DNA of 64,000 bases from Buttiauxella massiliensis. GTDB taxonomy: Bacteria > Pseudomonadota > Gammaproteobacteria > Enterobacterales > Enterobacteriaceae. The DNA is taken from the NCBI RefSeq assembly GCF_902500225.1, contig NZ_LR722665.1:1-64000 (forward strand), written 5' to 3'. The notes under the pieces were generated by a model. That model saw only the letters and a list, made by a program, of their open reading frames with translations. It searched no databases and was not told where the DNA came from. Positions within the stretch are counted from its first letter, which is position 1; each line of letters begins with the position of its first letter. Of this stretch, positions 42,729 to 61,754 are shown in pieces. Both the position numbers and the translations under genes were made by a program.

Positions 42729-42736
42729 TCTCGGAA

Positions 42737-42761
42737 AATGCCTTCCCGTCGGGAAGGCATT
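42737..42761. terminator. Hairpin terminator between suhB and zevB
   Basis: An 11-bp perfect stem, AATGCCTTCCC with GGGAAGGCATT, around a 3-base loop lies between the convergent stops. The T-run is short on both strands, so termination may be modest. Confidence 0.65.
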
Positions 42762-42764
42762 CAA

Positions 42765-43748
42765 TTAAAACGGTCGAATCCCACGCATTACCGGTTGAGC
42801 ACTCAGCCACATCACCACTGCTGCTAATACTAAAATTCCACCACCTGCAAATGCCAGTGTCGCCCAGGCGACTTGCCGCCATAAAACGGGTGCTTTATTC
42901 CCGCTAATGCGTACCGCAAGCTGACGGAAACCGTGGACTAAAAAAGCCAGGCCAGAAATGGTAATAGATGTACCTGCAGCCATCGCAAGCGTCGACAACA
43001 CTCCCCAGCTATACACACCAATCACTTTGCTAAACAGCAGCACCATAATTGCCCCAGAGCATGGGCGCATACCCATGGATAAAACAATCATCATTCGGGC
43101 ACGCCAGTCTTCTCCTGTTGCAAGCTGTTCCTGCGTGGGTAAATGCTGATGGCCACAGCCACATTTTTCATCATGTACATGATGAGGCGTGAATGAAGTG
43201 AAACGCTTCGGTTTTCGCAGCACACGTTGCAATTTACCCAGGGCTCGACCGCACAACATCACACCTAAAACACCCACCAGCAAATAGCTTCCCTTCTCGA
43301 GCCAAAAACTGCTCATGTGCAATTGGCGCGAAGGTAGAGCCAAAATTCCCAGCACTACCGTTACCAACCCAATCGCCACCACTCCTTGCAATAAAGATGC
43401 TGCAAACGTCAATTTAAGGCTGCTTTTCAAGCGCGAAGGATGTGTCGCAAGCCAGGTCGTAATAACTATTTTCCCATGGCCTGGCCCCAATGCGTGAAGC
43501 ACACCGTAAACAAAACTAAATGACAGCAATGACCAACCCGCCCGGGTAGGGTTCTCGGCAACCTCACGCAGGAGGGTGCTCATTTGTTGGTTAATCGATT
43601 TCTGCCACATCGCACTTTCGATGAGGATTTGCGGCCAGTAATGCCACAAGCTGTAAAGTGCTCCTGCACAAACCAGCAGGAAAAATGCCAGCGGCCACAG
43701 GTGGAGCCAACGGCGTGAATGGGGTTTAGCTGAAGGCATTACTGACAT
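42765..43748 (-). CDS. zevB: NicO-family metal transporter, ZevB-like
   Basis: Polytopic inner-membrane protein of 327 residues in the nickel/cobalt transporter (NicO/RcnA) family. Membrane segments include LHLWPLAFFLLVCAGALYSLW and others; the family motif HALGPGHGKIVI and a metal-binding loop rich in His and Cys (HHVHDEKCGCGHQH) are present. It overlaps the DUF1007 gene; the ATG at 43739 forms TAATG with the zevA stop and is a good alternative start. Pairing with DUF1007 is that of the zinc-uptake ZevAB of Haemophilus; nickel or cobalt remain possible substrates. Confidence 0.8.
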   Translation of the reverse strand: MSVMPSAKPHSRRWLHLWPLAFFLLVCAGALYSLWHYWPQILIESAMWQKSINQQMSTLLREVAENPTRAGWSLLSFSFVYGVLHALGPGHGKIVITTWLATHPSRLKSSLKLTFAASLLQGVVAIGLVTVVLGILALPSRQLHMSSFWLEKGSYLLVGVLGVMLCGRALGKLQRVLRKPKRFTSFTPHHVHDEKCGCGHQHLPTQEQLATGEDWRARMMIVLSMGMRPCSGAIMVLLFSKVIGVYSWGVLSTLAMAAGTSITISGLAFLVHGFRQLAVRISGNKAPVLWRQVAWATLAFAGGGILVLAAVVMWLSAQPVMRGIRPF

Positions 43749-44386
43749 TGCAATATCACCTGTTGAGCAAACTGTTTACCCAGTTCCATATCTTCGGGAG
43801 GGGCATCGGCTTTATCCAGCGATTGTGCGAAGGCCAGCGTATCTTCGTTCGGCTGCGGGGTTTTCACTGAAATTTTGCAAAGTGAGGCTAATGTTTTCGG
43901 CAATTTGGCATCACTGGAGTTGTCGTAACTCATATCGACAAAATAGGTCGGGTCGAACGTCGCAAACTGATACGTCTGCCCCTTCAATGGCTGCGGATGT
44001 GCAAGCGGTAAAACAAAGGTCAACACCGCCTGGTGCCCTACCCGTGCAAGACCATATTCCGGTGGCAGGTTATTAAAGGTCACTTTTTTACCTTTATGCC
44101 AGAATTCGGTGAAGTAATGCTGGCCTAAAACATTGGCCATGACTTCGGCTGCCAACTTCTTCCACACCGGTGAGTCCGGTTTGGCATTACCTGCGTCATA
44201 CAGTAGATCTGCTGAAGTGATTTCATCCATCGTCCACTGCATTTTAAGACCAGTAAGCTGGTCATTTTCGGTCATCACCGTCGTCACAAGGGTGATAAAA
44301 CTATGTGGATGTGCCAAAGCCACTGGGCTAAAAAGCACGCTATTTAAGGCGAAAAACGCAATTCTGTTACACATTTTCCTGCTCAT
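43739..44386 (-). CDS. zevA: DUF1007 periplasmic protein, ZevA-like
   Basis: A 215-residue secreted protein with a signal peptide (MCNRIAFFALNSVLFSPVALA) and a mature start HPHSFI typical of DUF1007. In Haemophilus the homologue ZevA works with ZevB in zinc uptake, and the N-terminal His-x-His is probably exposed as a metal ligand after cleavage. First gene of the zevAB pair, divergent from csiE. No Zur- or NikR-type palindrome is seen in the 119-base upstream gap. Confidence 0.8.
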   Translation of the reverse strand: MSRKMCNRIAFFALNSVLFSPVALAHPHSFITLVTTVMTENDQLTGLKMQWTMDEITSADLLYDAGNAKPDSPVWKKLAAEVMANVLGQHYFTEFWHKGKKVTFNNLPPEYGLARVGHQAVLTFVLPLAHPQPLKGQTYQFATFDPTYFVDMSYDNSSDAKLPKTLASLCKISVKTPQPNEDTLAFAQSLDKADAPPEDMELGKQFAQQVILQCQ

Positions 44387-44505
44387 TATTCTCTCAAGCT
44401 TAAAATTCTGTGAGCCAGTCAGAATTACGTAATTAAAAAGCTCAAATGTGACTCTCTACGACAAAAGGTTTAGCTACTCTTAGCATTAATTACTTTGACT
44501 CGGTT

Positions 44506-45792
44506 ATGCGGATGATGACACTACTCTCCCCACCACCATCTGTACTCTCCAGTCCGCAGCGCCGTTGCCACCTGCTTTTGTTGCTATACATACCGGGCCA
44601 AACCGTCACTCCTGAGATCCTCGCAAGACTCAACGGGGTCGATGACACCAAAGCCCTGCAAGATATAGCCGACACGGGTGATGAAATCCAGCGCTATCAC
44701 CGGCTGAGGCTTATCACGCAACAGGATGGTAGCTATCGGATTGAGGGCACGCCTTTAGACCGCCGTCTGTGCTTATTGCATTGGCTACGCCGTGCATTGC
44801 GTTTGTGCCCACACTTTGTGCAGCAGCATTTTACCCCGGCGCTCAAAATACAGCTTAAACAGCAAGGAATTCTGACCGCGTTATATGACGAGAAGAACCT
44901 CCAGGCGCTGATCGGGCTTTGCGCACGACGCTTGCAAAGGCAATTTGATAGCCGTGATGTGCAATTTTTAACGCTGTTTTTGCAGTACTGCTTGCACCAG
45001 CACCATGCTGGGATCACGCCAGAATTCACCGAGCAGCAACGCGCGTGGACACAAATTCGCCCGGAGTTTGTGGCAGCACTTGAGATTGCCCGCCATTGGA
45101 AGCGTCGCGTGCTGCAATCAGCCAACGAAAACGAGCAATTATTCCTGGCGCTATTATTCCAGTTACTACGTACTCCCGACCCGATTCGTGACAATCATGA
45201 GCAAGATTTACGCTTACGCTCGGCCATTTTCGGAATGACTGCGCGCTTTCGCGAGCTGGCGGGTATGTCCTTTAGCGATGAACAAGGCCTGAGCGACCAG
45301 CTCTACATCCATCTTGCTCAGGCATTGGATCGTTGCCAGTTCGGTATTGGGATTGATAACAGCCTACCGGAAGAAATAACTCGTCTTTACCCACGCCTGA
45401 TGCGCACCACACGTGAAGCGTTCAATGATTTTGAAAACCATTTTGAAATGCGTTTTTCAGATGAAGAGGTGGGACTGGTGGCGGTGATCTTCGGAGCGTG
45501 GTTAATGCAGGAAAATGATCTGCATGAAAAGCAGGTTTTGCTGCTCACTGGCAACAACATTGAACTTGAACAAAGTATTGAACAGCAGCTGCGTGAGCTA
45601 ACGTTACTGCCGCTCAATATTAAACATCTGACGATTCACAGTTACCAAAAAGAGGGAGCGCCGAAAGAAGTGGTGTTGGTGATTACACCCTACTTTACCA
45701 CTTTACCACTTTACTCACCGCCACTGATTCACGTAACGCTGCCGCTGGGTGAACACCAGCAGCAGCAGATCCGTAAGATTATTGAGTGTTAA
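44506..45792 (+). CDS. csiE: Stationary-phase-inducible protein CsiE
   Basis: A 428-residue protein related to PRD-containing antiterminators, under RpoS/CRP control in E. coli; its role is unknown. PSVLSSPQRRCHLLLLLYIPG opens a helix-turn-helix-like part. The C-terminal half has a PRD-like segment (DEEVGLVAVIFGAWLMQENDLHEKQ) and an EIIB-like tail. Its last 14 bases overlap the end of convergent hcaT. Confidence 0.92.
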   Translation: MRMMTLLSPPPSVLSSPQRRCHLLLLLYIPGQTVTPEILARLNGVDDTKALQDIADTGDEIQRYHRLRLITQQDGSYRIEGTPLDRRLCLLHWLRRALRLCPHFVQQHFTPALKIQLKQQGILTALYDEKNLQALIGLCARRLQRQFDSRDVQFLTLFLQYCLHQHHAGITPEFTEQQRAWTQIRPEFVAALEIARHWKRRVLQSANENEQLFLALLFQLLRTPDPIRDNHEQDLRLRSAIFGMTARFRELAGMSFSDEQGLSDQLYIHLAQALDRCQFGIGIDNSLPEEITRLYPRLMRTTREAFNDFENHFEMRFSDEEVGLVAVIFGAWLMQENDLHEKQVLLLTGNNIELEQSIEQQLRELTLLPLNIKHLTIHSYQKEGAPKEVVLVITPYFTTLPLYSPPLIHVTLPLGEHQQQQIRKIIEC

Positions 45793-46930
45793 CGCAATAT
45801 GAGATGGGACGTGGCCGAATGAACAATGCAGGAACGGCCACCAACGCCATAATCCAGAACACCCCACCCTGCATATGCTGGTAAAGGTAGCCGGAGAACA
45901 TCGTCATAATGGCAATACCACCACCCATTGCTACCGCTGAATAGACGGCCTGCAAACGGATGACTTCGTTACCCTCGCGAGCCGAGATATAACGCATCGC
46001 CGCCAGGTGGCAAACAGTGAAGCTGCCGCAGTGAAGGATTTGCGCAGCAATCAGCCACGGCAAATCGGTCGTATACGCCATCAGGCTCCAGCGCAGTATT
46101 CCAGTCACACCAGAAAGCAGCAGCAAGTCACGCGCACTCCAGTTACGGAACAGCTTGTTGCTCAGAGCAAAAATCACAATTTCCGCAACAACACCCAGCG
46201 ACCACAGATACCCAACAACCGACGCGGAATAGCCCGCTCCTTGCCAGTAAATCGCACTGAATCCGTAGTAAGCCGCGTGTGCGCCTTGAAGTAATGTCAC
46301 GCAGGCCAGGAATCGCCATGAACCGAGCACCAGGTTCTTCCACGCAGGCCAACCCGCACCTTCTTTATGGCGAGTTTCACCTTGCGGCATTACGGATGGG
46401 CGCAGCATCATGCCGATTAACATCGACGCGACACCAATACTCAGCAGCACCAGAATTGCCTGGTAGCTATACATGCTCACCAGCTTACCCGTCATGGCGG
46501 AGCCAATCACAAACGCCAGCGATCCCCACAGGCGCACACGACCATAATCCATGGTGATTTGACGCTGCCAGGTTCCGGCCAACGCATCGGTAAGCGGCAC
46601 CAGCGGTGAGAAGAACAGGTTAAAACCGACCATCACAATCAAAAGCCAGGTGGCGGTTTGTCCGAACCAGAAAGCAACGGCAAATAGCAAAGTGAGTAAG
46701 GCGAGTAAACGCAAAGCAAAGACAAGTCGGGAAGGGTCGGTAACACGAGGGGCAAGAAGCAAACTACCAAGGAAACGGGCGATTAATCCAGCCCCTAACA
46801 ATAGCCCTATGGTTTCAGGGGGCAGACCAACTCCGGCAAGCCAGACACTCCAGAATGGCAGGAAAATCCCGTAGCTAAAGAAGTAGGTAAAATAACTGAG
46901 CGCCAGCCAGCGCGTTGAATGCAAAACCAT
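45779..46930 (-). CDS. hcaT: Major facilitator HcaT
   Basis: Predicted 3-phenylpropionate transporter of the MFS with 12 membrane helices, 383 residues from the ATG at 46930 (MVLHSTRWLALSYFTYFF), which has GGGAGG upstream. Conserved LPFWSVWLAGVGL and HAAYYGFSAIYWQ match E. coli HcaT. The hca catabolic operon that follows it in E. coli is absent here: the next genes upstream are the sugar locus. The substrate is therefore less certain. Confidence 0.9.
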   Translation of the reverse strand: MVLHSTRWLALSYFTYFFSYGIFLPFWSVWLAGVGLPPETIGLLLGAGLIARFLGSLLLAPRVTDPSRLVFALRLLALLTLLFAVAFWFGQTATWLLIVMVGFNLFFSPLVPLTDALAGTWQRQITMDYGRVRLWGSLAFVIGSAMTGKLVSMYSYQAILVLLSIGVASMLIGMMLRPSVMPQGETRHKEGAGWPAWKNLVLGSWRFLACVTLLQGAHAAYYGFSAIYWQGAGYSASVVGYLWSLGVVAEIVIFALSNKLFRNWSARDLLLLSGVTGILRWSLMAYTTDLPWLIAAQILHCGSFTVCHLAAMRYISAREGNEVIRLQAVYSAVAMGGGIAIMTMFSGYLYQHMQGGVFWIMALVAVPALFIRPRPISYCVNTQ

Positions 46931-47040
46931 GATCCCTCCCGTTTTGGAGGCGCTAGTGTGTCCGAGCGCTGGCGTGCTTGCAAGCATTCATTAACAGACT
47001 AATAACACCTGATAATTAAATGGCCTTATTGATTTACCAG

Positions 47041-47104
47041 GGTGGATAAGCGACAGCGTCATCCAGCAGAATTGTCGGATGACACTGACGTTTATTCGAC
47101 CTAC
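47041..47104. repeat. REP-like element touching the epimerase stop codon
   Basis: GGTGGATAAGCGACAGCGTCATCC and GTCGGATGACACTGACG...TTCGACCTAC form facing REP-type units between hcaT and the aldose epimerase gene. The right unit overlaps the epimerase stop codon (47101-47103). Confidence 0.6.
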
Positions 47105-47922
47105 AAAACCATCATTTCCATTGCTAGCCGTGTCGTTTCTCCCTGCCCCAAACACACCAGTCCCGGCTGCCCGGCCATATTATGGGCATTCACCGGGTGG
47201 CTTTGTGGCTCAAGGCAAATAAATGGTTCATCTGCCATACGGAATACCATCAAGTACGGCGTGGAACATTTTAGTTGCACAAGCAGGTCACCAGATTCAA
47301 TCAACGCCAAACCGTTCCAACCGGAATAGCCAACATTCAGCCAGTGGTTGTCCGGAATTTTCGCCGTGATGAAATTGGTTTGTGCCGTCAGTTGGTCACT
47401 CCACTCAAGAGGTAAGTGACTCTCTCCTTCAGGCCAGAAGCCCGTTGCTCCAAACTGCACGTGTGTCGCAGGTGTGAGATGGAAAAAGGGATGAAAACCC
47501 AGCCCATAAACCATCGGCTTACTTCCCCGGTGAGTGAGTTGAAGCTCCGCGATAAAACATTTACCTTCCAGCCGGTAAACCAGCCGCGCGTGATAATCAA
47601 ACCCGCACTCATGCTGACTATCCAGCGTTAAAACAATCTGCTGACTATCCTCGGTTTCGACCTGCCAGCTTTTCAGCCAGCCATCCCCATGGAGAAAAAA
47701 TTGTTCATCGACCGGACTTTTCGGCAGTGTGACCATTTCTCCGTGTAGCCGAAAGCAATTCCCGGCGACTCGGTTTGCCAGCGGCAGCATCGGGAATAAT
47801 GCTTTTTCAGCTGTATAAAGAATCGGTTGCTGGTGCTTTAGCGAGTCCAGGCTGAGGATTGCCGCCCCTTGCGGGGCGACGGTTAAACGTAGATAGTCAC
47901 TTTCAAGTAACAAGCTTTGCAT
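47101..47922 (-). CDS. Aldose 1-epimerase family protein
   Basis: A 273-residue protein of the galactose-mutarotase superfamily, expected to interconvert sugar anomers in the cytosol. LFPMLPLANRVAGNCFRLHG, GLGFHPFFHLTP (with the catalytic-type His) and FICLEPQSHPVNAHN, including the conserved Glu region, are visible. It lies 14 bases after the DUF5107 gene and is likely co-transcribed, which suggests a galactoside- or related hexose-processing role. Confidence 0.88.
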   Translation of the reverse strand: MQSLLLESDYLRLTVAPQGAAILSLDSLKHQQPILYTAEKALFPMLPLANRVAGNCFRLHGEMVTLPKSPVDEQFFLHGDGWLKSWQVETEDSQQIVLTLDSQHECGFDYHARLVYRLEGKCFIAELQLTHRGSKPMVYGLGFHPFFHLTPATHVQFGATGFWPEGESHLPLEWSDQLTAQTNFITAKIPDNHWLNVGYSGWNGLALIESGDLLVQLKCSTPYLMVFRMADEPFICLEPQSHPVNAHNMAGQPGLVCLGQGETTRLAMEMMVL

Positions 47923-47936
47923 ACCTTAATACACCT

Positions 47937-50900
47937 TTATTCAGCAAAAACACCGCGCTGCGTTGCCAGTTGCAGCAAGTGCGCTTTGTCGTGTGCCGGG
48001 TTTTGTGACAGTAAAGCTGTCAGCGCGGCTTCGAACTCAGTGACTTCGCCTAATCCCAGATGCCCAAGAGCAGTGACAAACAGGCAGTGCTGTTTATGCA
48101 AGGCCTGGCGATCGGCATCCAGCGCCACTAAGTCCGGCAGTGAAACGGCAAAGAAATCAGGTTCAGACAGGTCGTTAAAGTGCGCATCAGCCCAGGTAAT
48201 AAAGTTGCGGAATTGCAGCTCGGCCTGCTCTTTTTCTCCGATACGAGCCAGCGCCATAGCCTGATAGAACAGGTAATCCACCGGTTGGTCGTTGTAATAA
48301 CGTCCGACTTCGAGGGTAGAGCCGCCTTCCAGTGCACGTTGGTAATAATGTTGGGCGCGTTCCGGCTGTTGATTTTGCTGCGCACACCAGCCAAGCAGAT
48401 ACCAGATGTCGTTATCGCTCTGGCCGACTAAGCGCCCTTCGCCGAGGTTTTCCGGGTAACTCAGCGCCTGCTGGAGTAACTCTTCTGCTTTTCCAAACTG
48501 CTGTTCAGCGATACACGCCAGCGCCCGGCGTTGCAGGTTGATGAGATATTGTCCGGTGACTTTGCCCTCGCCGCCTTCCCACGGGTGGAATTTACGCTGG
48601 GCTAAAACCTGCGCGGCGGCGTCAGTTTCACCGTGAATGTTCCACAGGCTGAGTAATTCCGCGGTTAAGTCATCACGCTTAAGCACTACATCGCGGCGTG
48701 GGGCAAGATTTGCCAGGCGCTGCTCCGTCGCACGACCGGTGAGTTTTTGCAGATAATCGAGTTCAAACAGGAAGCGGGCGTTGTCCGGCTCCAGTTCGAC
48801 TGCGCGTTGGAGATATTGCTCAGCCAGTTTAGCATCATACTGTTTGTTCCAGGCGTGGATACCGAGAACTCGCTGCACCGCAGCAAATTCCGGAAGTTGC
48901 TGTGCGGCGAATTGCCAGCAAGCCACCGCTTCGTGATAGCGGCGTTTGCTGTACCAGAAACAGCCGAGCAGATATTGCGCGAAGCCATCGTGCGGCAGAC
49001 GCTGCAGCATCTGTACTTCTTCAAGCGTGTTCGGGAAGCGCACTTTGCGGGCAAAGTTTTCCTGCGCCAACTGTACAAACGCATGTTGCTGGGCGTGGTC
49101 AGTTTCTAGCGAAGCACGCCATAACAGCGGCATTGCTTCCTGGGAATCGAGCACTTTGAGCAGGTATTTCGCCGCCGCATCTTTGCCCATACTCACCAGC
49201 CAGCCCGCTAACACACTGGCATTCACGCCGCGTTTGCCTGTGACACGCAATAGTTCGGCGCGATCCGTTTCACTTTGTGTGATAACCCAGCGAGCGTAAT
49301 GCAGCACGTAACTCAGCGGATATTCTTCGAGCTGCTGCGCAATCCAGGCCAGTGCCTGCGGTTGCGGCAATACCAGCGCTTTCAGCCCCATCGCCAGGTT
49401 GTTGCTGGCGTTAAATTTCAGGCTTTGGTTTACAAACGCCAATGCCTGAGCAGTCTCGCCCTTACGCAGCCCCAGGCGAGCAAGGGCATAAAACGCCGCG
49501 TCACGGCAGTTACCGCTCCAGCTTGCTTTAAAGTAATCGTCGAACGCACCGTCGAACTCGCCCTGCTTCTCTTTGGCGGCACCGCGCAACATGCTGGCGT
49601 CACCGTTTTGTGGGTTTTTGTTCAGACGATGCGCCCGTTTCAGCGCGACATCTGCGTGTTTTTCGGCAAACGTCCAGTTGCCACGGTTAAGCTCAAGCTG
49701 CCCAAGCGCCACGTTGCAGCGGTAATCTTCTGCATCCAGCGCCAGCGCACGCTGGTAGTAATCAAACGCCGAACGGCTGGCGTGCAGATATTGCTCAAGA
49801 TGCTGGCCGATAAAATACAGCTCGTCGCAGTTGGTGATGTCCTGTGGTTTCGCCGGAACACTAGCGGGCTGTGGCAGCGGCAAATCTTCAGGAACATGCT
49901 CGCAATAACTGAGAATGAGATTGCCCTGTGCATCACGTAGATTGAGCGTCAGTCGTTGCGGCCAGGTGTCGTTGACCGTTTCTTGCCACGCCTGCGCCGG
50001 TTGCAGTGAAAGCGTGGTTTTCCACAGCGTTGTCCCTGCGGATTCAATTTCCAGCGACACGCCTGCAAGCGGTGCTATGGCGTACACGCCGAGGTACAGT
50101 TCGCCGTTGTGACGTTCGAGTTTTATCGCCGCCTGAGTGTTGGCGTTTTGCAGCGTGCCAAGCTGGCTGTAAGGCAGGAAGTTTTGGACGAAGACTTTCT
50201 CTTCGTAAGGCGCAATCCAGGTGAAGTCCGGCTGGTTGTCGGTAAACACACCAGTCATTAATTCGATATACGGGCCATTTTCATCGGTCAGATTGCGATC
50301 CCACGCTTGGCCGAAATCGCAATTGCCCCACGTCCACTGTTTCTTGCCCGGTGAAACATGGTGGTCGGCAATGTGCAGCAAACCGCCCTGCTCGCCGTGA
50401 TGGTAAGCGCCGACAAAATCGTAATTTGATTTATCTGCCATGTAAGACGTTGGCACCGGGATGTTTTTGTAGCGCGAGATATCGACGCCAGCGGAGTAAT
50501 CAACTTTGTAGTAAGTCCCGTGAGCGATCGGGAAGGCAGAAACATCGCGTTTGCCGTGGTCGAATACCGCCGTGACATCGGGCGGGAATACACTTTGGTG
50601 TTCATCACCGCCTTTCACCGCCGGGTTTGCCCACCACAGGAAATGGCGCGGCGTAGCGTTGCCGTTGAACACTTTGCCAGTGATTTCAATCAGCGCTTTT
50701 TCCGGGTAGAGCGTAAAGCCAGTCATCACCTGCAAGCCGCGCATCGGCTCGACTTCACCGAGCCAGACGGTTTGCGCGCCGTTTTCATGTTTCTGGAAAG
50801 TCACGTCGACGGGCATGAAGGTGGTTGGGCGATGATGCTGCGGCCAGTTAAATTCGATGCCGCCAGAAATCCACGGCCCGACCAAACCCACCAACGCCGG

Positions 50901-51203
50901 TTTCACTACTTCGTTGTAGTAAACGAAATCGCGCTCCATCACTTTGTCATAAGCGCGGTGAATACGGCCGCCCAACTCCGGCAGCAGCATGACGCGGATA
51001 AAGTCGTTTTCAATCCACACGGCATTGTAGTCACGCATCTCGCGCTGGCCGGTGAGCGTGTCGATGACGCCGTAAGGATAAACCGCACCGGACGAACCCT
51101 GGTAAACGCGGTTTTCCAGAAACATAGGATTCGGGTCTTCCGCACCGGTAGTCCAAGTGGGTAAAGCAATAGTCTCTTGCCAGACGTTAACGGCTCCGAA
51201 CAT
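47937..51203 (-). CDS. DUF5107 and TPR protein of unknown function
   Basis: A large cytosolic-looking protein of 1088 residues with no signal peptide. The N-terminal third (about residues 30-380) is a DUF5107 beta-sandwich domain related to the mutarotase/glycosidase fold, with LLPELGGRIHRAYDKV and WPQHHRPTTFMPVDV. From about residue 460 to the end runs a superhelix of TPR units (for example YYQRALALDAEDYRCNVALG). The ATG at 51203 has GGAG upstream. It heads an operon with the aldose epimerase and is divergent from a ROK regulator. Role in handling an oligosaccharide is likely, but the exact reaction is unknown. Confidence 0.85.
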   Translation of the reverse strand: MFGAVNVWQETIALPTWTTGAEDPNPMFLENRVYQGSSGAVYPYGVIDTLTGQREMRDYNAVWIENDFIRVMLLPELGGRIHRAYDKVMERDFVYYNEVVKPALVGLVGPWISGGIEFNWPQHHRPTTFMPVDVTFQKHENGAQTVWLGEVEPMRGLQVMTGFTLYPEKALIEITGKVFNGNATPRHFLWWANPAVKGGDEHQSVFPPDVTAVFDHGKRDVSAFPIAHGTYYKVDYSAGVDISRYKNIPVPTSYMADKSNYDFVGAYHHGEQGGLLHIADHHVSPGKKQWTWGNCDFGQAWDRNLTDENGPYIELMTGVFTDNQPDFTWIAPYEEKVFVQNFLPYSQLGTLQNANTQAAIKLERHNGELYLGVYAIAPLAGVSLEIESAGTTLWKTTLSLQPAQAWQETVNDTWPQRLTLNLRDAQGNLILSYCEHVPEDLPLPQPASVPAKPQDITNCDELYFIGQHLEQYLHASRSAFDYYQRALALDAEDYRCNVALGQLELNRGNWTFAEKHADVALKRAHRLNKNPQNGDASMLRGAAKEKQGEFDGAFDDYFKASWSGNCRDAAFYALARLGLRKGETAQALAFVNQSLKFNASNNLAMGLKALVLPQPQALAWIAQQLEEYPLSYVLHYARWVITQSETDRAELLRVTGKRGVNASVLAGWLVSMGKDAAAKYLLKVLDSQEAMPLLWRASLETDHAQQHAFVQLAQENFARKVRFPNTLEEVQMLQRLPHDGFAQYLLGCFWYSKRRYHEAVACWQFAAQQLPEFAAVQRVLGIHAWNKQYDAKLAEQYLQRAVELEPDNARFLFELDYLQKLTGRATEQRLANLAPRRDVVLKRDDLTAELLSLWNIHGETDAAAQVLAQRKFHPWEGGEGKVTGQYLINLQRRALACIAEQQFGKAEELLQQALSYPENLGEGRLVGQSDNDIWYLLGWCAQQNQQPERAQHYYQRALEGGSTLEVGRYYNDQPVDYLFYQAMALARIGEKEQAELQFRNFITWADAHFNDLSEPDFFAVSLPDLVALDADRQALHKQHCLFVTALGHLGLGEVTEFEAALTALLSQNPAHDKAHLLQLATQRGVFAE

Positions 51204-51249
51204 TTCATTTCTCCAGTAAACAAACAACAGTGAAATACGTTATGGTTGC

Positions 51250-51261
51250 AGTGTAGAGAAC
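51250..51261 (-). promoter_or_regulatory. Candidate operator/promoter element of the DUF5107 operon
   Basis: GTTCTCTACACT on the minus strand is identical to the 12-mer at 52631-52642 and lies 47 bases before the DUF5107 ATG. Its last six bases (TACACT) could serve as a -10. It also lies just upstream of the divergent ROK gene, allowing autoregulation. A direct repeat TTGCAG flanks it at 51246 and 51265. Confidence 0.55.
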
Positions 51262-51318
51262 TCATTGCAGCTTAAAGTGCTTAATGCTCACGCAATAAAG
51301 TTAACGGGGTTTAGTGAA

Positions 51319-52515
51319 ATGCAATCTTCAGGGCTGAATAATCAACGCGTACGGCAACTCAATCGCCAGACGGTAATGAAACTGGTATGGCAGCATAAGC
51401 TGCTTAGTAAATCGCAGTTTTCTCAGCACACAGGGCTCTCTATTCCGGCGGTGAGCAATATTCTTGAGGAGTTGGTTAATGATGGAAAGCTGAGCCACTC
51501 CAGTGAAAACCTCAGCAAACGTGGCATTAACAGCGGGAGCTACCAAATCCCGCCAGACGGAGATTTTATTCTCTGCATGAATGTCACCCCTACCAGCATT
51601 GAAAGCCAACTTTGCGATGCGCAACTTTCACCCAATGGTGAATTTGAACGTATGCAGGTGAATGCCTCCACACCCCAGGCATTGCTGGCCGCCATTGAAA
51701 ATATCTGGCGCAATCAATGCAAAACCTGGCCGAAAAAGACAATTAATCTGGCATTGGGTATTCACGGGCAGGTCGATCCGGTGACCGGCGTGTCGCAAAC
51801 CATGCCGCAAGCTCCGTGGCGTGAGCCAGTAGAAATCAAATATCTACTTGAAGAAAAACTGGGTGTATCGGTACGTCTGGATAACGATTGCGTGATGTTG
51901 GCGCTGGCAGAGAAATGGCAAAACCCAGCCAGTCGCCAGGATTTTTGCGTGATAAACGTGGATTACGGGATTGGTTCGTCATTTGTGATTAACGGGCAAA
52001 TTTATCGCGGCAGTTTGTACGGCAGCGGGCAAATTGGCCACACCATTGTGAACCCAGATGGCATAGCTTGTGACTGCGGAAGGTATGGCTGCCTTGAAAC
52101 TGTGGCCTCACTTTCGGCACTAAAAAAGCAGGCGCGTATATGGCTGAAATCACAACCCTATTCATCCAAACTTGACCCTGAAACATTAACATCAATGCAG
52201 TTAATTGCCGCCTGGCACGATGGCAACGAGCAGGTGCGGCGCTGGGTTGATAACTCAGCCAACGCCATCGGGCTTAGCTTGTATAATTTTCTAAACATCC
52301 TGAATATCAACCAGATTTGGTTTTATGGCAGGAGCTGTGGGTTTGGTGATGAATGGCTTGCAACCATCGACCGACAGATTGGATTTACTCCCTTTGATCA
52401 CGGGGATGTATTAAAAAATAAGGCAACACAGATTAATTTCGGTCCCTTAAATCGCACTCAGCAGGTGATGGGGATTGGCTATTTGTATGTTGAGTCGATG
52501 CTTGAGAAAGAATGA
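51319..52515 (+). CDS. ROK-family transcriptional regulator
   Basis: A 398-residue sugar-sensing repressor of the NagC/Mlc/XylR type. Residues 12-60 are a winged helix-turn-helix (LLSKSQFSQHTGLSIPAVSN). The ROK domain follows with the zinc-binding signature CDCGRYGCLE (Cys251, Cys253, Cys258) and DYGIGSSFVINGQIYRG. ATG at 51319 is chosen; an upstream TTG at 51265 is also in frame. Placed between two sugar operons that share a 12-base motif, it probably controls both. Confidence 0.9.
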   Translation: MQSSGLNNQRVRQLNRQTVMKLVWQHKLLSKSQFSQHTGLSIPAVSNILEELVNDGKLSHSSENLSKRGINSGSYQIPPDGDFILCMNVTPTSIESQLCDAQLSPNGEFERMQVNASTPQALLAAIENIWRNQCKTWPKKTINLALGIHGQVDPVTGVSQTMPQAPWREPVEIKYLLEEKLGVSVRLDNDCVMLALAEKWQNPASRQDFCVINVDYGIGSSFVINGQIYRGSLYGSGQIGHTIVNPDGIACDCGRYGCLETVASLSALKKQARIWLKSQPYSSKLDPETLTSMQLIAAWHDGNEQVRRWVDNSANAIGLSLYNFLNILNINQIWFYGRSCGFGDEWLATIDRQIGFTPFDHGDVLKNKATQINFGPLNRTQQVMGIGYLYVESMLEKE

Positions 52516-52630
52516 AATATTTTTATCCAGGATAAGATCTGCGGCTCATGCCACATTCTTTACGTTCAATGTGATTAGTAATCTCAGTTAACTAAAATCT
52601 AACGTTTTGCGCAAAGTTATCCGCAATCTG

Positions 52631-52642
52631 GTTCTCTACACT
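52631..52642 (+). promoter_or_regulatory. Candidate operator/promoter element of the symporter-glycosidase operon
   Basis: GTTCTCTACACT in the 160-base gap before the symporter gene is an exact copy of the 12-mer upstream of the DUF5107 operon, in the same orientation to its target and 52 bases before the symporter ATG. Both copies have GCAAT a few bases upstream. Shared control by the ROK protein is inferred. Confidence 0.55.
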
Positions 52643-52694
52643 TTTCATCACTCCCGAACTACAGGGTATTCTAAAAATGATAAGGATTCCCGAT

Positions 52695-53924
52695 ATGATA
52701 CATAGTAAAAGAAACTACATAACATTAAGTATATTTGACTTTCTCTATCTGTTTACATGGTCAGCAGCCATGTCCTTTTTTGTCATATGGTTGAATCAAG
52801 CCTTAAATATTAACAGTACAAATACCGGTTTTCTTTATATGGGTATGAGTATTTGTGCTATGGTATTACAACCTTTTTTTGGCTACATCTCCGATAAATT
52901 TGGATTACGTAAAAATTTCGTTTATGCAATTCTTTTTATATTAATCCCAATCGGACCATTTTTTATCTATGTTTATGCCCCGTTGTTAGTTAGCCACTTC
53001 TGGATTGGATTGCTGATAGGTTCAATTTACCTGTCATTAGTTTTTAACGCAGGATATGGCGTTATTGATTCATACATTGATAAGGTTTCAAGGAAGTGCG
53101 GATTTGAATATGGTCGGGTGCGTATGTGGGGTTCTCTCGGATGGGCAGCGGCAACATTTATTGTTGGTCGCGCTATTACTCACACGCCTGATTTCGCATT
53201 TTGGTTTGCATCAGCATCCGCTATCCTTGCATTAATATTTTTCTGGTTAACTAAAGTAGATGTCTCTGATGTTGACATCAACACCTCCAGTTCTGTTTCC
53301 ATTAAAGATGTCAGTAATCTAATCCAGAACAAACAATTTTGGTATCTGCTGGTGTTTGGTATTGGTGTCAGTTGCGTCTATGAGGTTTACGACCAACAAT
53401 TTGGTAATTATTTTGTTTCATTCTTCGCATCTAAAGAAGAAGGAAATAAGTGGTTTGGTGATCTGGCATCTGTTCAGGTTGTTGGTGAAACAATCTTCCT
53501 TTGTTTAATGCCTTTTATCGTGAATAAGTTTGGTGCTAAAAACTGCTTAATTCTGGCTGGATTTATTATGTCATTCAGAATTATCGGTTCAGCAATGCCA
53601 TGGGGTACAGTATGGATCGCCGCCATGAAAATGTTACATGCTATAGAGAAACCACTTATTGTGGTAACGATATTTAAATATATATCATTCAACTTTAATA
53701 GCAAAATGGCCTCAACAACCTATCTTTCCTATTTGTTTAGCATGTCATTAGCCACGGCCATTCTCTCCCCAATAATTGGCCACATGTATGAAGTTCTTGA
53801 TTACAGGAAAACCTACATGATCTTAGGTGTTATAAGTTTAACATTTACAACATTTGCATTGCTGACATTAAAATCTGATAAAAATAGTTTGACTAAAGAA
53901 ATTCAAAAAGAGGTTGTGTTATGA
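52695..53924 (+). CDS. LacY-like oligosaccharide:H+ symporter
   Basis: MFS permease of 409 residues with 12 helices in the LacY/RafB/CscB family. Residues known to be essential in LacY are conserved by alignment: Arg144 in EYGRVRMWG, Trp151 in SLGWAA, Glu269 in SKEEGNKWFG, Arg302 in SFRIIGS, and His322 and Glu325 in MLHAIEKP. LacY Glu126 is replaced by Asp (GVIDSY), a conservative change. This points to a beta- or alpha-galactoside as substrate. The ATG at 52695 has AAGGA eight bases upstream and fits the LacY N-terminus; ATG 52677 is also in frame. Base composition is markedly more AT-rich than the surrounding core. It overlaps the next gene by four bases. Confidence 0.9.
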   Translation: MIHSKRNYITLSIFDFLYLFTWSAAMSFFVIWLNQALNINSTNTGFLYMGMSICAMVLQPFFGYISDKFGLRKNFVYAILFILIPIGPFFIYVYAPLLVSHFWIGLLIGSIYLSLVFNAGYGVIDSYIDKVSRKCGFEYGRVRMWGSLGWAAATFIVGRAITHTPDFAFWFASASAILALIFFWLTKVDVSDVDINTSSSVSIKDVSNLIQNKQFWYLLVFGIGVSCVYEVYDQQFGNYFVSFFASKEEGNKWFGDLASVQVVGETIFLCLMPFIVNKFGAKNCLILAGFIMSFRIIGSAMPWGTVWIAAMKMLHAIEKPLIVVTIFKYISFNFNSKMASTTYLSYLFSMSLATAILSPIIGHMYEVLDYRKTYMILGVISLTFTTFALLTLKSDKNSLTKEIQKEVVL

Positions 53925-56221
53925 ATCGAATAAATTTGATTAATGCAGATAAGAATATCTTTAACATCAATATGTCGACGCATATTGATAGCAATCAAGA
54001 GAAAAAGGTAAACTTCACTAATTATTTCATGACAATTGAAGATAAACCTTTTTATGGCATCAGCGGTGAGTTTCACTTCAGCAGATATGAGCACACTCAG
54101 TGGGAAGATGAAATCATCAAAATAAAGATGTGTGGTATCAATATCATCCCCACGTATATCATCTGGAATCATCACGAAGAAATGAAAGGAGTGTACAACT
54201 GGAATGACAATTTAAATATTAATAAATTCATTTCTCTTTGTGCAAAACATGATTTATATGTAATTATTAGAATTGGACCTTTTTGTCATGGAGAGATCCG
54301 CAATGGTGGTTTTCCTGATTGGCTATATGGAGAACCATGTCGAGTAAGAAGCAACGACCCTGACTATCTAAAACTAGTTGACCGCCTGTATGGTGAAATC
54401 GGTCAACAGGTAAAGGGATTTTTCATTAAAGATGGCGGACCCATTATTGGTGTACAGCTTGAAAATGAATTTGGTCACTCGAGCGCCCCATGGGAGATAA
54501 CTACCGGTACCAGCAATGAATGGTGTACCACTGGTGAAGATGGCTATGAGCATATTGATGAATTAAAGAGAATTGCTCTCAAACATGATATAAACCCTGC
54601 ATTCTATACTGGAACTGGCTGGGGGGGTTCATTTGCCAGACCTGACCAAGTATTGCCACTCTGGGGGGGATATGCATATTGGCCATGGATATTTTATGGT
54701 GATGTTAGCGAACATCCATTAACGCCTGAATTTATATATCGAGACTTTCATAATAATGAAATAGGTTCGACATATAACTTTGAGCCTCTTTATGAGCCGG
54801 AGCAAGTTCCTTATGCTTGCTGCGAAATGGCAGGTGGGATGACTGTTTTTTATAACTATCGATTCCAATTACCTTATAAAAGCATTGATGCAATGTCTAA
54901 CATCAAGATTGCTGGCGGATGTAATTTACTTGGCTATTATGTTTTTCATGGTGGTTCAAACCCAACTGGGAAACTGACTCCTTACCTGAATGAAACAGTT
55001 ACACCAAAAATATCATATGATTATCAAGCCGCGATAGGTGAATTTGGACAAGTACGTGAGTCGTACAAACGACTAAAGCGCCTGCATTATTTCCTTAACA
55101 CGTACAGCGAAGAATTCTGTTCGATGAAAACATTTCTTCCAGAGAACTCTCAATCTATCAATCCCGATGATCTCGAAACCATTAGATTTGCTGTGAGAGC
55201 CAAAGAAGACCGTGGTTTCTTGTTCATCAATAACTTCCAGGATCACATTGAAAACATTAACAAGGACAATTTTGATATTAACATTGACCTTAGAGACGGT
55301 CAGCTTGCTTTAAAGGGTTTATCACTGAAAAAAGAAGAGAACTGTATCCTTCCATTTAACTTTAAAATGGGCTCGACAACACTTAGATACGCCACGTGTC
55401 AATTAATTACTCACATTTTTCAAAATGGGGTAAATAAATATTTATTTTTCACTCCTGATGGCATGCCAGGTGAGTATTATTTTAAACGAGAAAGTATCTT
55501 CACCGATGCAGTGACTAACAATATAAGTGATGATCTAATTGCAATATCTGGTTCAGTACCATTCAAATTCCATGATCTAGAAAACAATCAATTTGAAATT
55601 ATCACACTGTCAGAAAATGAAAGTGAAAATTTGTGGGTATTTGATTTTGAAGGACAGAAACAAGTTATTATAACAAACGCTGTAGTTTTAGCAGAAAAAG
55701 ATAAAGTCAGATTTGAATCTGACAGTAATGTTATTGATATTTGTACTTTAATTAATTTACCCTGTACGTCTATCATTCAAAAACTTGAGCAATCAGGCGA
55801 TAAAAAAACCGTAGGTGAGAGGGTGTATTACAAACTATCTAAAGATGCAATAAACATTGGTATTGAGAAACAGTTTAGTAATAATGGAAAACATTGTCGT
55901 TTATCTATTGATAGCAATGCATTGCAACTAATTAAAGATGCTCGCCTTCATATTAAATACCTGGGTGACATTGGCTATTCATTTATTAATAATAAACTTA
56001 TTCATGATAATTATCACAATGGTGATGACTGGGTTATTGGTCTTAAAAAGCATCTTTTACCATTATCAGAACATGAAATATTTTTGAAAATATCGCCTGT
56101 CCGCGAAGGTAAGCATGTTAAAACTGACTCTCCAATGGCAGCAAGAAGTGAAAGTGCAGTGAGTGAAATTGCTGAATTCGTCGAAATAAGGGTACAACCA
56201 GTTTACGAGTTCACTTTATAA
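53921..56221 (+). CDS. GH35-like beta-galactosidase
   Basis: A 766-residue glycosidase without a signal peptide, so it acts on sugar brought in by the preceding symporter. The N-terminal (beta/alpha)8 domain holds RIGPFCHGEIRNGGFPDWL and GGPIIGVQLENEFG (about residues 172-185), the GH35 acid/base region. CCEMAGG near residue 302 is the probable nucleophile, by comparison with GH35 members reading ELGGG. NLLGYYVFHGGSNPTGKLT is also typical of the family. The C-terminal 350 residues are beta-rich and poorly recognisable. ATGA overlap with the symporter gene and similar low GC indicate joint acquisition. Confidence 0.85.
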   Translation: MNRINLINADKNIFNINMSTHIDSNQEKKVNFTNYFMTIEDKPFYGISGEFHFSRYEHTQWEDEIIKIKMCGINIIPTYIIWNHHEEMKGVYNWNDNLNINKFISLCAKHDLYVIIRIGPFCHGEIRNGGFPDWLYGEPCRVRSNDPDYLKLVDRLYGEIGQQVKGFFIKDGGPIIGVQLENEFGHSSAPWEITTGTSNEWCTTGEDGYEHIDELKRIALKHDINPAFYTGTGWGGSFARPDQVLPLWGGYAYWPWIFYGDVSEHPLTPEFIYRDFHNNEIGSTYNFEPLYEPEQVPYACCEMAGGMTVFYNYRFQLPYKSIDAMSNIKIAGGCNLLGYYVFHGGSNPTGKLTPYLNETVTPKISYDYQAAIGEFGQVRESYKRLKRLHYFLNTYSEEFCSMKTFLPENSQSINPDDLETIRFAVRAKEDRGFLFINNFQDHIENINKDNFDINIDLRDGQLALKGLSLKKEENCILPFNFKMGSTTLRYATCQLITHIFQNGVNKYLFFTPDGMPGEYYFKRESIFTDAVTNNISDDLIAISGSVPFKFHDLENNQFEIITLSENESENLWVFDFEGQKQVIITNAVVLAEKDKVRFESDSNVIDICTLINLPCTSIIQKLEQSGDKKTVGERVYYKLSKDAINIGIEKQFSNNGKHCRLSIDSNALQLIKDARLHIKYLGDIGYSFINNKLIHDNYHNGDDWVIGLKKHLLPLSEHEIFLKISPVREGKHVKTDSPMAARSESAVSEIAEFVEIRVQPVYEFTL

Positions 56222-56237
56222 TATTATTAGTAAATAG

Positions 56238-56295
56238 CAGGTCCCCCCTAAATAAAGCGGTGGACCTGACTGATTATTATTTTGGGGTTGTTTTT
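56238..56295 (+). terminator. Probable terminator of the symporter-glycosidase operon
   Basis: CAGGTCC (56238-56244) pairs with GGACCTG (56262-56268), with partial pairing inside. A T-rich stretch ending in GTTTTTT follows, starting 17 bases past the glycosidase stop codon. Confidence 0.55.
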
Positions 56296-56344
56296 TATCG
56301 AAATGCTAACCTGGCAGCTCGGAAGCAGTAACCTTCAACATAGC

Positions 56345-56368
56345 AAAGCCCACGAGTATGTGGGCTTT
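56345..56368. terminator. Hairpin downstream of glyA
   Basis: AAAGCCCAC (56345-56353) pairs perfectly with GTGGGCTTT (56360-56368). It lies about 35 bases past the glyA stop on the minus strand and has built-in A/T flanks, so it may stop both converging transcripts. Confidence 0.6.
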
Positions 56369-56403
56369 GAGCAATTAAGCAGGTAAATCTTGTGCACGAA
56401 AGA

Positions 56404-57657
56404 TTATGCGTACACAGGTAAACGTGCGCAGATATCGAGAACTTTTTGCTTGGTGCGTTCGATAACAGCTTCGTCGTTGATGCTATCAAGCACATCACAC
56501 ATCCAGCCAGCCAGTTCACGAACGTCTGCTTCATTGAAGCCACGGCGAGTTACCGCTGGAGTACCGATACGGATACCAGAAGTCACAAACGGGCTCTTCG
56601 GATCGTTTGGCACGCTGTTTTTGTTCACGGTGATATTCGCGCGACCCAATGCAGCATCTGCTTCTTTACCGGTCAGGTTTTTATCAACCAGATCCAGCAG
56701 GAACAGGTGGTTGTCAGTACCGCCAGAAACCACTTTGTAACCGCGATCCAGGAACACAGAAACCATTGCTTTTGCATTCTTAGCAACTTGCTGCTGGTAA
56801 GTTTTGAACTCAGGTTCCATTGCTTCTTTCAGTGCAACAGCTTTACCCGCGATGACGTGCATCAGTGGGCCGCCCTGCGCGCCTGGGAACACAGCGGAGT
56901 TCAGTTTCTTATACAGCTCTTCGCTGCCGCCTTTCGCGAGGATTAAACCACCGCGTGGGCCTGCCAGAGTTTTGTGCGTAGTGGTTGTCACAACGTGCGC
57001 ATGTGGAACCGGGTTCGGGTAAACGCCCGCGGCAATCAGGCCAGCAACGTGTGCCATGTCCACGAACAGTTTGGCATCAACCATGTCCGCGATTTCACGC
57101 ATTTTTGCCCAATCAACCACGCCGGAATAAGCAGAGAAGCCACCGATGATCATTTTCGGCTTATGGGCTTTAGCTTGTTTTTCCAGGTCTGCGTAGTCGA
57201 TATGACCGCTTTCATCGATACCATAAGGAACGATGTTGTACAGCTTACCGGAGAAGTTTACCGGGGAGCCGTGAGTCAGGTGGCCGCCGTGTGCCAGGTT
57301 CATACCCAGAACGGTGTCGCCTGGTTCCAGCAAAGTGGTGTATACCGCGAAGTTAGCCTGTGAACCGGAGTGCGGTTGCACGTTAGCGTAATCAGCGCCG
57401 AACAACTCTTTTGCACGGTCGATAGCCAGTTGTTCAACCACATCAACGTATTCGCAACCGCCGTAGTAGCGTTTGCCTGGGTAGCCTTCAGCGTATTTGT
57501 TGGTTAACTGAGAACCCTGAGCCTGCATCACGCGTGGGCTGGTGTAGTTTTCGGAGGCGATCAGTTCAATGTGCTCTTCCTGACGTACTTTTTCTTGCTC
57601 CATGGCCTGCCATAAATCGGCATCGTAATCGGCAATGTTCATTTCACGTTTTAACAT
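56404..57657 (-). CDS. glyA: Serine hydroxymethyltransferase
   Basis: PLP enzyme that converts serine and tetrahydrofolate to glycine and methylene-tetrahydrofolate, the main one-carbon source. The 417 residues match E. coli. The PLP lysine is in [16 protein letters not shown] and the N-terminal [15 protein letters not shown] is conserved. The ATG at 57657 ([12 protein letters not shown]) has GGAGA upstream; an extra in-frame start lies two codons earlier. Divergent from hmp across a 345-base control region. Confidence 0.98.
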
Positions 57658-57775
57658 TCGCATCTCCAGACTCAGCTAACAGTAAAAATTCGAACAGCTT
57701 TGAGGGCTCTCTCAAACAACGGGCAACAGTGTAAACCGAATTGGTATCAGGTGATAGGTCTTGACAGAGGTTTTT

Positions 57776-57791
57776 ACGCAAACGATTGGCT
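57776..57791. promoter_or_regulatory. PurR-like operator upstream of glyA
   Basis: ACGCAAACGATTGGCT resembles the purine repressor consensus ACGCAAACGTTTNCNT, with a well matched left half. glyA is a known PurR target in E. coli. The rest of the 57658-58002 gap holds both promoters; MetR half-sites are plausible but not clear. Confidence 0.55.
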
Positions 57792-57947
57792 CGGCATCCA
57801 GCAAGGGTTTGAAGCCAAAAGTGGCAAGCTATTTCTGCGGATATTAATTCATCATCAACATGCAGAAATTTCATGTTCTGTGAGCCGAATCGACTCAGTA
57901 AGTATCCATTTACAATGTAGTACTTTTATTTTGGCGGCGAGTTTTAT

Positions 57948-57970
57948 AAGATGCATTTAAAATACATCAT
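57948..57970. promoter_or_regulatory. NsrR operator at the hmp promoter
   Basis: A 23-base inverted repeat, AAGATGCATTT followed by AAAATACATCAT, closely resembles the NsrR site of E. coli hmp. A TATAAG -10 (57944-57949) overlaps its left edge, so binding would block transcription until NO removes the NsrR cluster. Confidence 0.75.
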
Positions 57971-58002
57971 TTAAAAAACCTGCCCGAAAATGGAGAAATA
58001 CC

Positions 58003-59193
58003 ATGCTTGATGCACAAACCATCGCTACAGTGAAATCGACTATTCCCCTGCTTGCAGCAACCGGTCCAAAACTTACCGCGCACTTTTACGATCGCATGTT
58101 CAGCCATAATCCTGAGTTGAAAGAGATCTTCAATATGAGCAACCAGCGCAATGGCGATCAGCGTGAAGCGCTGTTCAATGCCATCTGTGCTTACGCGACT
58201 AACATTGAAAATCTGGCGGTGTTACTACCAGCGGTAGAAAAAATCGCGCAGAAACACACCAGTTTCCAGATTAAACCGGAGCAGTACGACATCGTCGGTG
58301 GTCACCTGTTAGCAACGCTGGATGAAATGTTTAGCCCGGGCCAGGAAGTATTGGATGCGTGGGGCAAAGCGTATGGCGTGCTGGCGGGCGTGTTTATCAA
58401 TCGTGAAGCGGAAATCTACCAGGATAACGCGGCAAAAAATGGCGGCTGGGAAGGCACTCGCGCGTTCCGTATTGTGGCAAAAGAGCCACAAAGCGCACTT
58501 ATCACCAGTTTTGAATTTGAACCGGTGGATGCTAAACCGGTCGCGGATTATCAACCAGGCCAATACCTTGGCGTATGGCTCAAACCTGAAGGCTTCCCGC
58601 ATCAGGAGATTCGCCAATATTCCCTGACCCGCAAGCCAGATGGCAAAAGCTATCGCATTGCGGTGAAACGCGAAGATTTAGGCCAGGTTTCAAGCTGGTT
58701 ACACAATCACGCGCAAGTGGGCGATGAAGTGCATCTGGCTGCGCCTGCTGGTGATTTCTTTATGGACGTGAACGCGCAAACACCGGTTACGTTGATTTCA
58801 GCAGGTGTTGGCCAAACGCCGATGCTGGCAATGCTCGATACGCTGGCGAAAAATGATCATAGCGCGCAGGTGAACTGGTTCCATGCAGCTGAACATGGTG
58901 ACGTACATGCATTTGCGGATGAAGTGAATCACCTGGGTGAACAGTTGCCACGCTTTGAGCGCCACGTATGGTATCGCACACCATCCGAACGTTGCCGTGC
59001 GCAGGCAAAATTTGATAGCGAAGGGCTGATGGATTTAGTCGCACTTGAGAGCAAAATCAGCGCGCCAGATATGCAGTTTTATCTGTGCGGCCCGTTGAGT
59101 TTTATGCGTTTTGCTGCTGAGCAATTGGTGAAGTTGGGTGTTGAGCAAGACCAGATTCATTATGAATGTTTTGGTCCGCATAAAGTGATGTGA
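58003..59193 (+). CDS. hmp: Flavohaemoglobin, nitric oxide dioxygenase
   Basis: Detoxifies NO to nitrate with O2 and NAD(P)H. The 396 residues are those of E. coli Hmp. A globin domain (1-138) carries the proximal His in the [13 protein letters not shown] region. The FAD domain has [10 protein letters not shown], and the NAD(P)H domain has [13 protein letters not shown] and a C-terminal CFGPHKVM. Preceded by an NsrR-type operator and followed by a BIME. Confidence 0.97.
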
Positions 59194-59201
59194 TCAAAAA
59201 A

Positions 59202-59279
59202 CACGGTGGATGTCGCTCGCGCTAATCCACCGTGGCGCTGCTTTTCGTAGGTCGGATTAGCGTAAGCGACATCCGACAT
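59202..59279. repeat. REP/BIME element between hmp and glnB
   Basis: Two REP-type units with their own stems: GGTGGATGTCGCTCGCGCTAATCCACC and GTCGGATTAGCGTAAGCGACATCCGAC. They sit between the convergent hmp and glnB stops. Confidence 0.8.
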
Positions 59280-59286
59280 ACAATTA

Positions 59287-59682
<396 letters not shown>

Positions 59683-59697
59683 TCAAATTACCACAAA

Positions 59698-61751: not shown

Positions 61752-61754
61752 TTT

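Follow-up and report, generated by a model that had tools for sequence, protein, structure and literature searches.

The closest described system to the locus considered here is the yph region of Escherichia coli K-12, whose genes follow the order hcaT - hcaREFCBD - yphA - yphBCDEFG - (divergent) yphH - glyA. A literature search that was mostly blind to subscription papers found no function for the K-12 yph locus, nor for yphG or yphH individually, and nothing joining YphH, the ROK family and a regulon; one source counts YphH among the transcription factors of unknown function (PMC9308461). The lac operon is a further parallel, sharing with our locus a sugar symporter and a glycosidase within one operon. 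The sequence analysed is a stretch of 64,000 nucleotides of Buttiauxella massiliensis (positions 1 to 64,000 of contig NZ_LR722665.1; hereafter the window), in which the order is hcaT - yphB - yphG - (divergent) yphH - LacY-like - GH35 - glyA. Judging from sequence comparisons, we hold it somewhat better than an even prospect that this locus is a variant yph unit, in which a constant YphG-YphB-YphH core is combined with an exchangeable transport and hydrolysis module under the control of YphH. What speaks most strongly for a functional link is the missing XylE-like porter together with a common promoter palindrome.

47101-47922, minus strand: yphB, aldose epimerase of the aldose-1-epimerase family; 273 amino acids; PF01263
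47923-47936: yphB-yphG junction, 14 nt, without a porter; a gene for a XylE-like sugar porter stands here in 10 of 10 fetched relatives from the genus
47937-51203, minus strand: yphG, DUF5107 (residues 40-328) and TPR; 1088 amino acids; PF17128 and TPRs
51250-51261, minus strand: GTTCTCTACACT, block of the yphG promoter, putatively a -10 region by resemblance
51299-51315, minus strand: ACTAAACCCCGTTAACT, 17-bp palindrome of the yphG promoter, predicted YphH operator
51319-52515, plus strand: yphH, ROK/NagC-like regulator; ATG at 51319, longest open reading frame from TTG at 51265; PF00480
52577-52593, plus strand: AGTAATCTCAGTTAACT, second copy of the palindrome, ahead of the acquired pair; ranks second among the sites of the 64-kb window
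52631-52642, plus strand: GTTCTCTACACT ahead of the LacY-type gene, at the 44-nt distance from GTTAACT that is also seen in the yphG promoter
52695-53924, plus strand: LacY-type sugar symporter; 409 amino acids; PF01306; 35.6% GC
53921-56221, plus strand: GH35 glycosidase; 766 amino acids; PF01301; 35.9% GC; nearest relatives in Bacillota

All five open reading frames (ORFs) are present and open, and the families assigned to these adjacent genes by an earlier note, made from the letters alone, are borne out by the Pfam domains listed. That note took the genes to replace the hca region and could not name their combination; the first three are yphB, yphG and yphH, the E. coli yph core, and lie in the K-12 hcaT-glyA interval beside hca. 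The identification follows from the K-12 gene order, from a megablast search with the region, which matched 3609 of 5426 E. coli genomes at the sensitivity used (yphH DNA about 75% identical in the best matches listed), and from a DUF5107 family search, which found a match in E. coli only among 14 control genomes. YphH combines a ROK domain with a NagC-like N-terminal part (NagC model from residue 28, below the equivalog cut-off). The window and K-12 thus share orthologous yphB, yphG and yphH, their order and divergence, the hcaT side, the glyA flank and the palindrome of the yphG promoter. The window interval lacks hcaREFCBD, yphA and yphCDEF; where K-12 has the yphCDEF dehydrogenase/ABC module, the window has the LacY-GH35 pair behind yphH instead. 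The pair is foreign in composition, at 36% GC against 48-55% for hcaT, yphB, yphG, yphH, glyA and hmp, and its two genes overlap, with the symporter stop and the GH35 start sharing ATGA.

The missing porter and the cassettes behind yphH

In all ten other loci of the genus that have yph (L060-L069), a sugar porter gene (longest ORF 479-497 amino acids) lies between yphB and yphG. One of these porters was scanned; it belongs to PF00083, with XylE as its best model, below that model's cut-off. In the window the gap between yphB and yphG is 14 nt, with homology on both sides of the expected porter position, and the best porter match in the window's genome is 36% identical and lies elsewhere. Parsimony suggests the direction of both changes, the loss of the porter in the window strain and the gain of the pair.

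The absence stands out in a wider sample of 66 yph loci chosen by yphG or yphH. It comprises the window, K-12, the ten loci of the genus and a further 54, fetched from among 69 non-genus genomes with yphG. All 66 carry yphG and yphH, and 65 carry yphB, none being seen in L077. A transporter of their own, yphDEF or a sugar porter, stands beside yphG in 63 loci; the window has none. A porter alone is found in 47 loci, yphCDEF alone in seven and both in seven, while a symporter-glycosidase cassette accompanies a porter in one locus, accompanies yphCDEF in another and is the only transporter in three (the window, L125 and L126). Cassettes therefore occur in 3/3 loci without a native transporter against 2/63 with one (Fisher p=2.2e-4, from a table hand-corrected by reassigning L076, L100, L101 and L108, with overlapping ORFs, as porter-bearing), although L125 and L126 look related, so that the three cases amount to about two events, which counts against our reading.

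The other four cassettes (L060, L113, L125 and L126) consist of a GPH symporter and a GH36 protein, then an OprD/ChiP-like porin, with families assigned from the L126 copies. They resemble the LacY-GH35 pair in slot and orientation, which are identical, and in palindrome, promoter flank and the combination of a symporter with a glycosidase; the L060 cassette is followed by glyA (L173). They differ in their protein families, in the porin, in a gene termed c54 that comes next in three of the four, and in a GH2 gene added in L174, the continuation of L125. The c54 protein (L126 1-1703, L174 8665-10500) has no Pfam or NCBIfam match, looks secreted by eye, and is possibly an undescribed glycosidase family. 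For the GH36 proteins there is a match to a beta-L-arabinopyranosidase model, far below its cut-off.

The space behind yphH has other occupants. A second periplasmic-binding-protein ABC operon (c26) is found there in L086, L096, L097, L098, L100-L103 and L116, apparently as an unrelated tenant. In L101, L106 and L112 yphG is split into two ORFs, and in L080 the porter is split, through decay or assembly errors.

The common promoter palindrome

Every yphG promoter examined contains a palindrome of the form ACTwAAC-N3-GTTwAsT. It occurs with 0 to 3 mismatches, 107-115 nt upstream of the yphG start, in 65/65 aligned promoters and is followed there by a TTGCGTGA-like block; in the 66th locus, L088, which was left out of the alignment, it was found by a scan. 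A weight matrix was built from 26 distinct 17-mers, none from the window. Its two best sites on both strands of the 64 kb are those of the yphG promoter (27.7 bits) and of the LacY-like promoter at 52577 (15.4 bits), with the third at 12.2 bits, and none of 2000 shuffles of the intergenic region upstream of the LacY-like gene reaches 15.4 bits. The GTTCTCTACACT block follows the same distribution: the positions 51250 and 52631 are its only occurrences with up to two mismatches within 42001-62000 and with up to one mismatch in the whole window, each at a distance of 44 nt from the GTTAACT half. A sigma-70 scan was uninformative (16 sites against 18.4 expected).

The five cassette promoters score 15.4-16.8 bits, with 0, 4, 0, 0 and 0 shuffles per 2000 as high, and the 61 other regions behind yphH score at most 11.6 bits. 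Outside the training set, yphF, the first gene of the ABC module, is preceded by a site of 14.1-27.7 bits in 11 of 15 loci. Porters that lie behind yphB have a site in two of 11 loci (L103, 17.4 bits; L123, 19.7 bits), and none of the 44 porters directly behind yphG has one, as expected for genes inside the operon. The palindrome is, from its position, the putative binding site of YphH, and the regulon should be recognisable by this one palindrome. The sugar freed by the cassette, or a derivative of it, would release YphH from the common site, and core and cassette would be expressed together. The locus also illustrates a way in which a conserved metabolic core may come to use a new diet: a foreign gene pair is taken up behind a regulator already in place.

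The acquired pair, YphG and the sugar

The two acquired genes differ in their distribution. LacY-family genes are common (137/295 family genomes), and GH35 is found in 1/12 genus, 1/198 family and 1/394 order genomes, each time in the window's own. The earlier note proposed to look for a co-occurrence of DUF5107, a ROK regulator, a symporter and GH35 in Enterobacterales; GH35 is not found in the other 393 of 394 sampled order genomes. The pairing of DUF5107 with GH35 is real and reaches across phyla (15 of 45 GH35 loci). Resemblance to lac does not extend to identity, which is ruled out by the lack of LacI, of LacZ (GH2) and of LacA among the locus genes; the regulator is of ROK type, the symporter comes first and E269 is changed.

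The symporter is 36% identical to K-12 LacY and passes the galactoside permease model with 444.7 bits against a cut-off of 429. In a comparison with what we take to be the LacY residues for proton coupling and sugar binding, R144, W151, D240, R302, K319, H322 and E325 are retained, and the claim of the earlier note that LacY substrate residues are present holds for these; it fails for E126D, E269V and K358M, to which N272E can be added. A LacY paralogue (37%) encoded elsewhere in the same genome adjoins a GH36-like protein (L172 7236-10705, G000:C29), itself a strong, sub-cut-off match to the beta-L-arabinopyranosidase model.

The glycosidase belongs to GH35 by its PF01301 domain, its fold and the residues E183 and E302, invariant in 43/43 aligned sequences (L033, L035 and L042, cut or in pieces, were left out); E302 would be the nucleophile. 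Its predicted structure is of good quality (predicted local distance difference test, pLDDT, 87; predicted template modelling score, pTM, 0.92), with GH35 beta-galactosidases as best fold matches, and no signal peptide is apparent by eye. The 45 relatives found among genome contigs are mostly from Bacillota, with 34-55% identity. In the tree the window protein, flagged for odd composition, is sister to Salibacterium (support 99/98), then weakly (85/70) to Paenibacillus and Spirochaetota. The full-length relative closest by identity (54%), in a Gracilibacillus draft genome (L042 9938-12329), is spread over three overlapping ORFs, through frameshifts or sequencing errors.

Linkage between YphG and GH35 is observed well beyond the family. 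A YphG homologue, full or cut, lies in 15/45 GH35 loci from Bacillota, Actinomycetota and Bacteroidota: eight are adjacent to GH35, five are separated from it by one ORF (a sugar porter in Hufsiella, Bacteroidota), and two are further away (5.6 kb in Bifidobacterium L022, 6.8 kb in Paenibacillus L041). Thirteen aligned homologues (L006 and L024, which are cut, were left out) are 40-43% identical to the window YphG, the DUF5107 part being strikingly conserved. A genome search covering 25 of the 45 GH35 loci found DUF5107 in 19 genomes, in single copy in 16, and within the GH35 locus flank in 11 of the 25; one of the matches, in L137, has no YphG ORF by script. By our own estimate from locus and genome lengths, chance would place about 0.1 in the flanks, although several of the loci are close relatives. 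These neighbourhoods in Bacillota, Bifidobacterium and Hufsiella have in common with the window a GH35 of the same clade and a YphG homologue; they differ in that no LacY-like gene was seen and in their AraC- or LacI-type regulators and ABC or other transporters, where examined. YphG neighbours are scattered across the GH35 tree. The nearest relatives of the window GH35 come from genomes without a DUF5107 match (L015, L004, L036 and L042, near by tree or identity) or with DUF5107 elsewhere (L003), so the pairing in the window looks rebuilt rather than inherited; its absence from those four genomes also means that it is not obligatory.

Among Enterobacteriaceae, YphG homologues occur in 75/392 genomes and 32/154 genera, and in Lachnospiraceae, the family of Blautia, in 24/200 genomes. 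Twenty yphG loci, some of them cut, were fetched from these 24. GH35 is near YphG in three (32-34% identical to that of the window), GH36 in two, a GH2-like protein (k7) in four, galM in three and yphC/D/E/F-like genes in ten; at least one of GH35, GH36 and k7 is present in seven, and five have no labelled partner. Ten further loci, from GH35-bearing genomes, add GH36 (L132), k7 (L130, L133), galM (L131) and GPH (L129, L133). It is conceivable, at a little short of an even chance, that YphG is the hub of a modular sugar system shared by Enterobacteriaceae, Bacillota, Actinomycetota and Bacteroidota. Cassettes of glycosidases (GH35, GH36, GH2) and transporters (LacY, GPH, sugar porter, ABC) would be swapped around the YphG reaction, and in Enterobacteriaceae a portable operator-promoter would bring them under YphH. 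Five Lachnospiraceae loci (L155, L153, L148, L150 and L134) carry yphC-like dehydrogenases and yphDEF-like importers, a second, oxidative-looking context of YphG; L155 holds Zn-dehydrogenases, an SDR, a xylose-isomerase-like protein, a ROK protein and an M24-peptidase-like protein.

What YphG itself does bears on this system, and the swap offers a lead: the substrate of the cassette should be, or yield, the substrate of YphG. The N-terminal 440 residues have a single sequence match in the PDB, 5cd6 (BDI_1685; E 4.5e-18), for which no function is named. Residues invariant in 14 YphG sequences include E117, H123, H124, R125, D209, H216, K218, H281, H282, K287 and E314, several of them kept in 5cd6. 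The predicted structure is poor in the DUF5107 core, falling below 50 over residues 189-318, so its fold matches, which are TPR proteins with 5cd6 third, say little. DUF5107 presumably has a galactose-mutarotase fold, and we tentatively regard YphG as a mutarotase-superfamily enzyme with the released sugar or glycoside as its substrate, at odds that we would not put as high as even. The main alternative, somewhat unlikely in our view, makes YphG a sugar-sensing scaffold or modulator whose TPR part serves as docking site for the glycosidase or transporter. The TPR stretch of about 600 residues and the constancy of YphG amid varying enzymes and transporters would suit such a role, but the DUF5107 part is the more conserved of the two, and the large number of its invariant residues (His, Asp, Glu and Lys) resembles an active site.

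The imported sugar is probably a galactoside, judging by sequence comparison. In six of the seven nearest family relatives of the symporter (53-57% identity), the examined region contains GH42, as a direct neighbour in two and at a remove of one ORF in four (called by Pfam for three and by BLAST for the rest). Further hints lie near YphG: GH36 in the alternative cassette, the recurrence of galM, galE, GH36 and GH2, and galE adjoining yphG in L009. The proposal of the earlier note, a unit for import and degradation of a galactoside, stands as far as one sugar unit is concerned, with a galactoside as its likeliest substrate on comparative evidence. The galactoside, for which a beta-galactosyl di- or oligosaccharide is the likeliest candidate, would enter intact through the LacY-like protein together with protons. 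GH35 would cleave it in the cytosol, and the released sugar would be handled by YphB and by YphG, the latter through its DUF5107 domain, while its TPR part would provide an assembly surface.

Several observations weigh against this account. E269 is replaced by V, with E at 272, in the symporter and in all seven of its nearest relatives. The GH35 clade has His in place of Cys in the usual PYICAEW motif and is distant from characterised GH35s. The four DUF5107-free genomes near the window GH35 belong here too, as do the 13 of 20 Lachnospiraceae yphG loci with none of GH35, GH36 and k7, in some of which their place is taken by dehydrogenases, an ABC importer and a xylose-isomerase-like protein. 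The architecture might be unchanged and the sugar another glycoside (glucosyl, arabinosyl, rare or anhydro) that is imported and processed by YphG-YphB. Precedent exists in IaSGT, a GH35 described as a beta-1,2-glucosyltransferase that transfers glucose and did not hydrolyse lactose (PMC8861115). YphF is reported to rise on levoglucosan, about 3.0- and 4.6-fold relative to fructose in engineered E. coli (PMC8753852). The sub-cut-off GH36 match to beta-L-arabinopyranosidase and the wealth of oxidoreductases in Lachnospiraceae yphG loci point the same way. Such a sugar is nevertheless unlikely, given the occurrence of the LacY clade with GH42, the company of GH36, GH2, galM and galE around YphG, and the GH35 beta-galactosidases that head the fold matches.

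Possible other origins of the palindrome and the pair

Control of the module by YphH faces difficulties of its own. The palindrome is missing ahead of yphF in four of the 15 loci (at most 7.7 bits) and ahead of nine of the 11 porters behind yphB (8.9 bits in L122, below 0 in eight), and no palindrome of at least 9 bits is found near the c26 ABC operon behind yphH. Sites of similar score occur within genes (16.6 bits in yphH of L111, 15.0 bits in c34 of L088), and several sites of 9-13 bits lie inside yphG, so that single matches are not proof and the argument lies in the pattern across promoters. The five cassette promoters share their flanks, ATTAGTAATC...AAAT.TAA...GCGCAAA; being homologous, they are not five independent matches. 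Given the shared flanks and the in-gene sites, the palindrome might be the site of another regulator, or promoter sequence inherited from a GPH-GH36 cassette and uninformative on YphH. We regard this as rather improbable, as the palindrome also precedes yphF in most loci and the separated porter in L103 and L123, and the copy in the yphG promoter adjoins yphH in every locus examined.

That the LacY-GH35 pair is a self-contained passenger at a permissive intergenic site, unconnected to yph, is quite improbable: the pair is AT-rich, its GH35 is private to one sampled genome, and the space behind yphH elsewhere takes the c26 operon, yphA or hca genes, but the palindrome with its spacing, the absent native porter, the GPH-GH36 cassettes in the same slot with a homologous promoter and the YphG-GH35 linkage in other phyla all argue for a connection. 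A comparison of the flanks of the pair, 52401-52720 with 56151-56480, shows no common stretch of at least nine bases in either direct or inverted orientation, and no Rfam element reaches its gathering score in 44-60 kb.

Within the genus, yphH is present in 11 of 12 genomes. The twelfth (G200) has no yph genes in its hcaT-glyA interval, which contains an ORF of 869 amino acids followed by two similar lipoprotein-like ORFs of 247-250 amino acids (L071 10843-15418), by eye a possible effector-immunity set.

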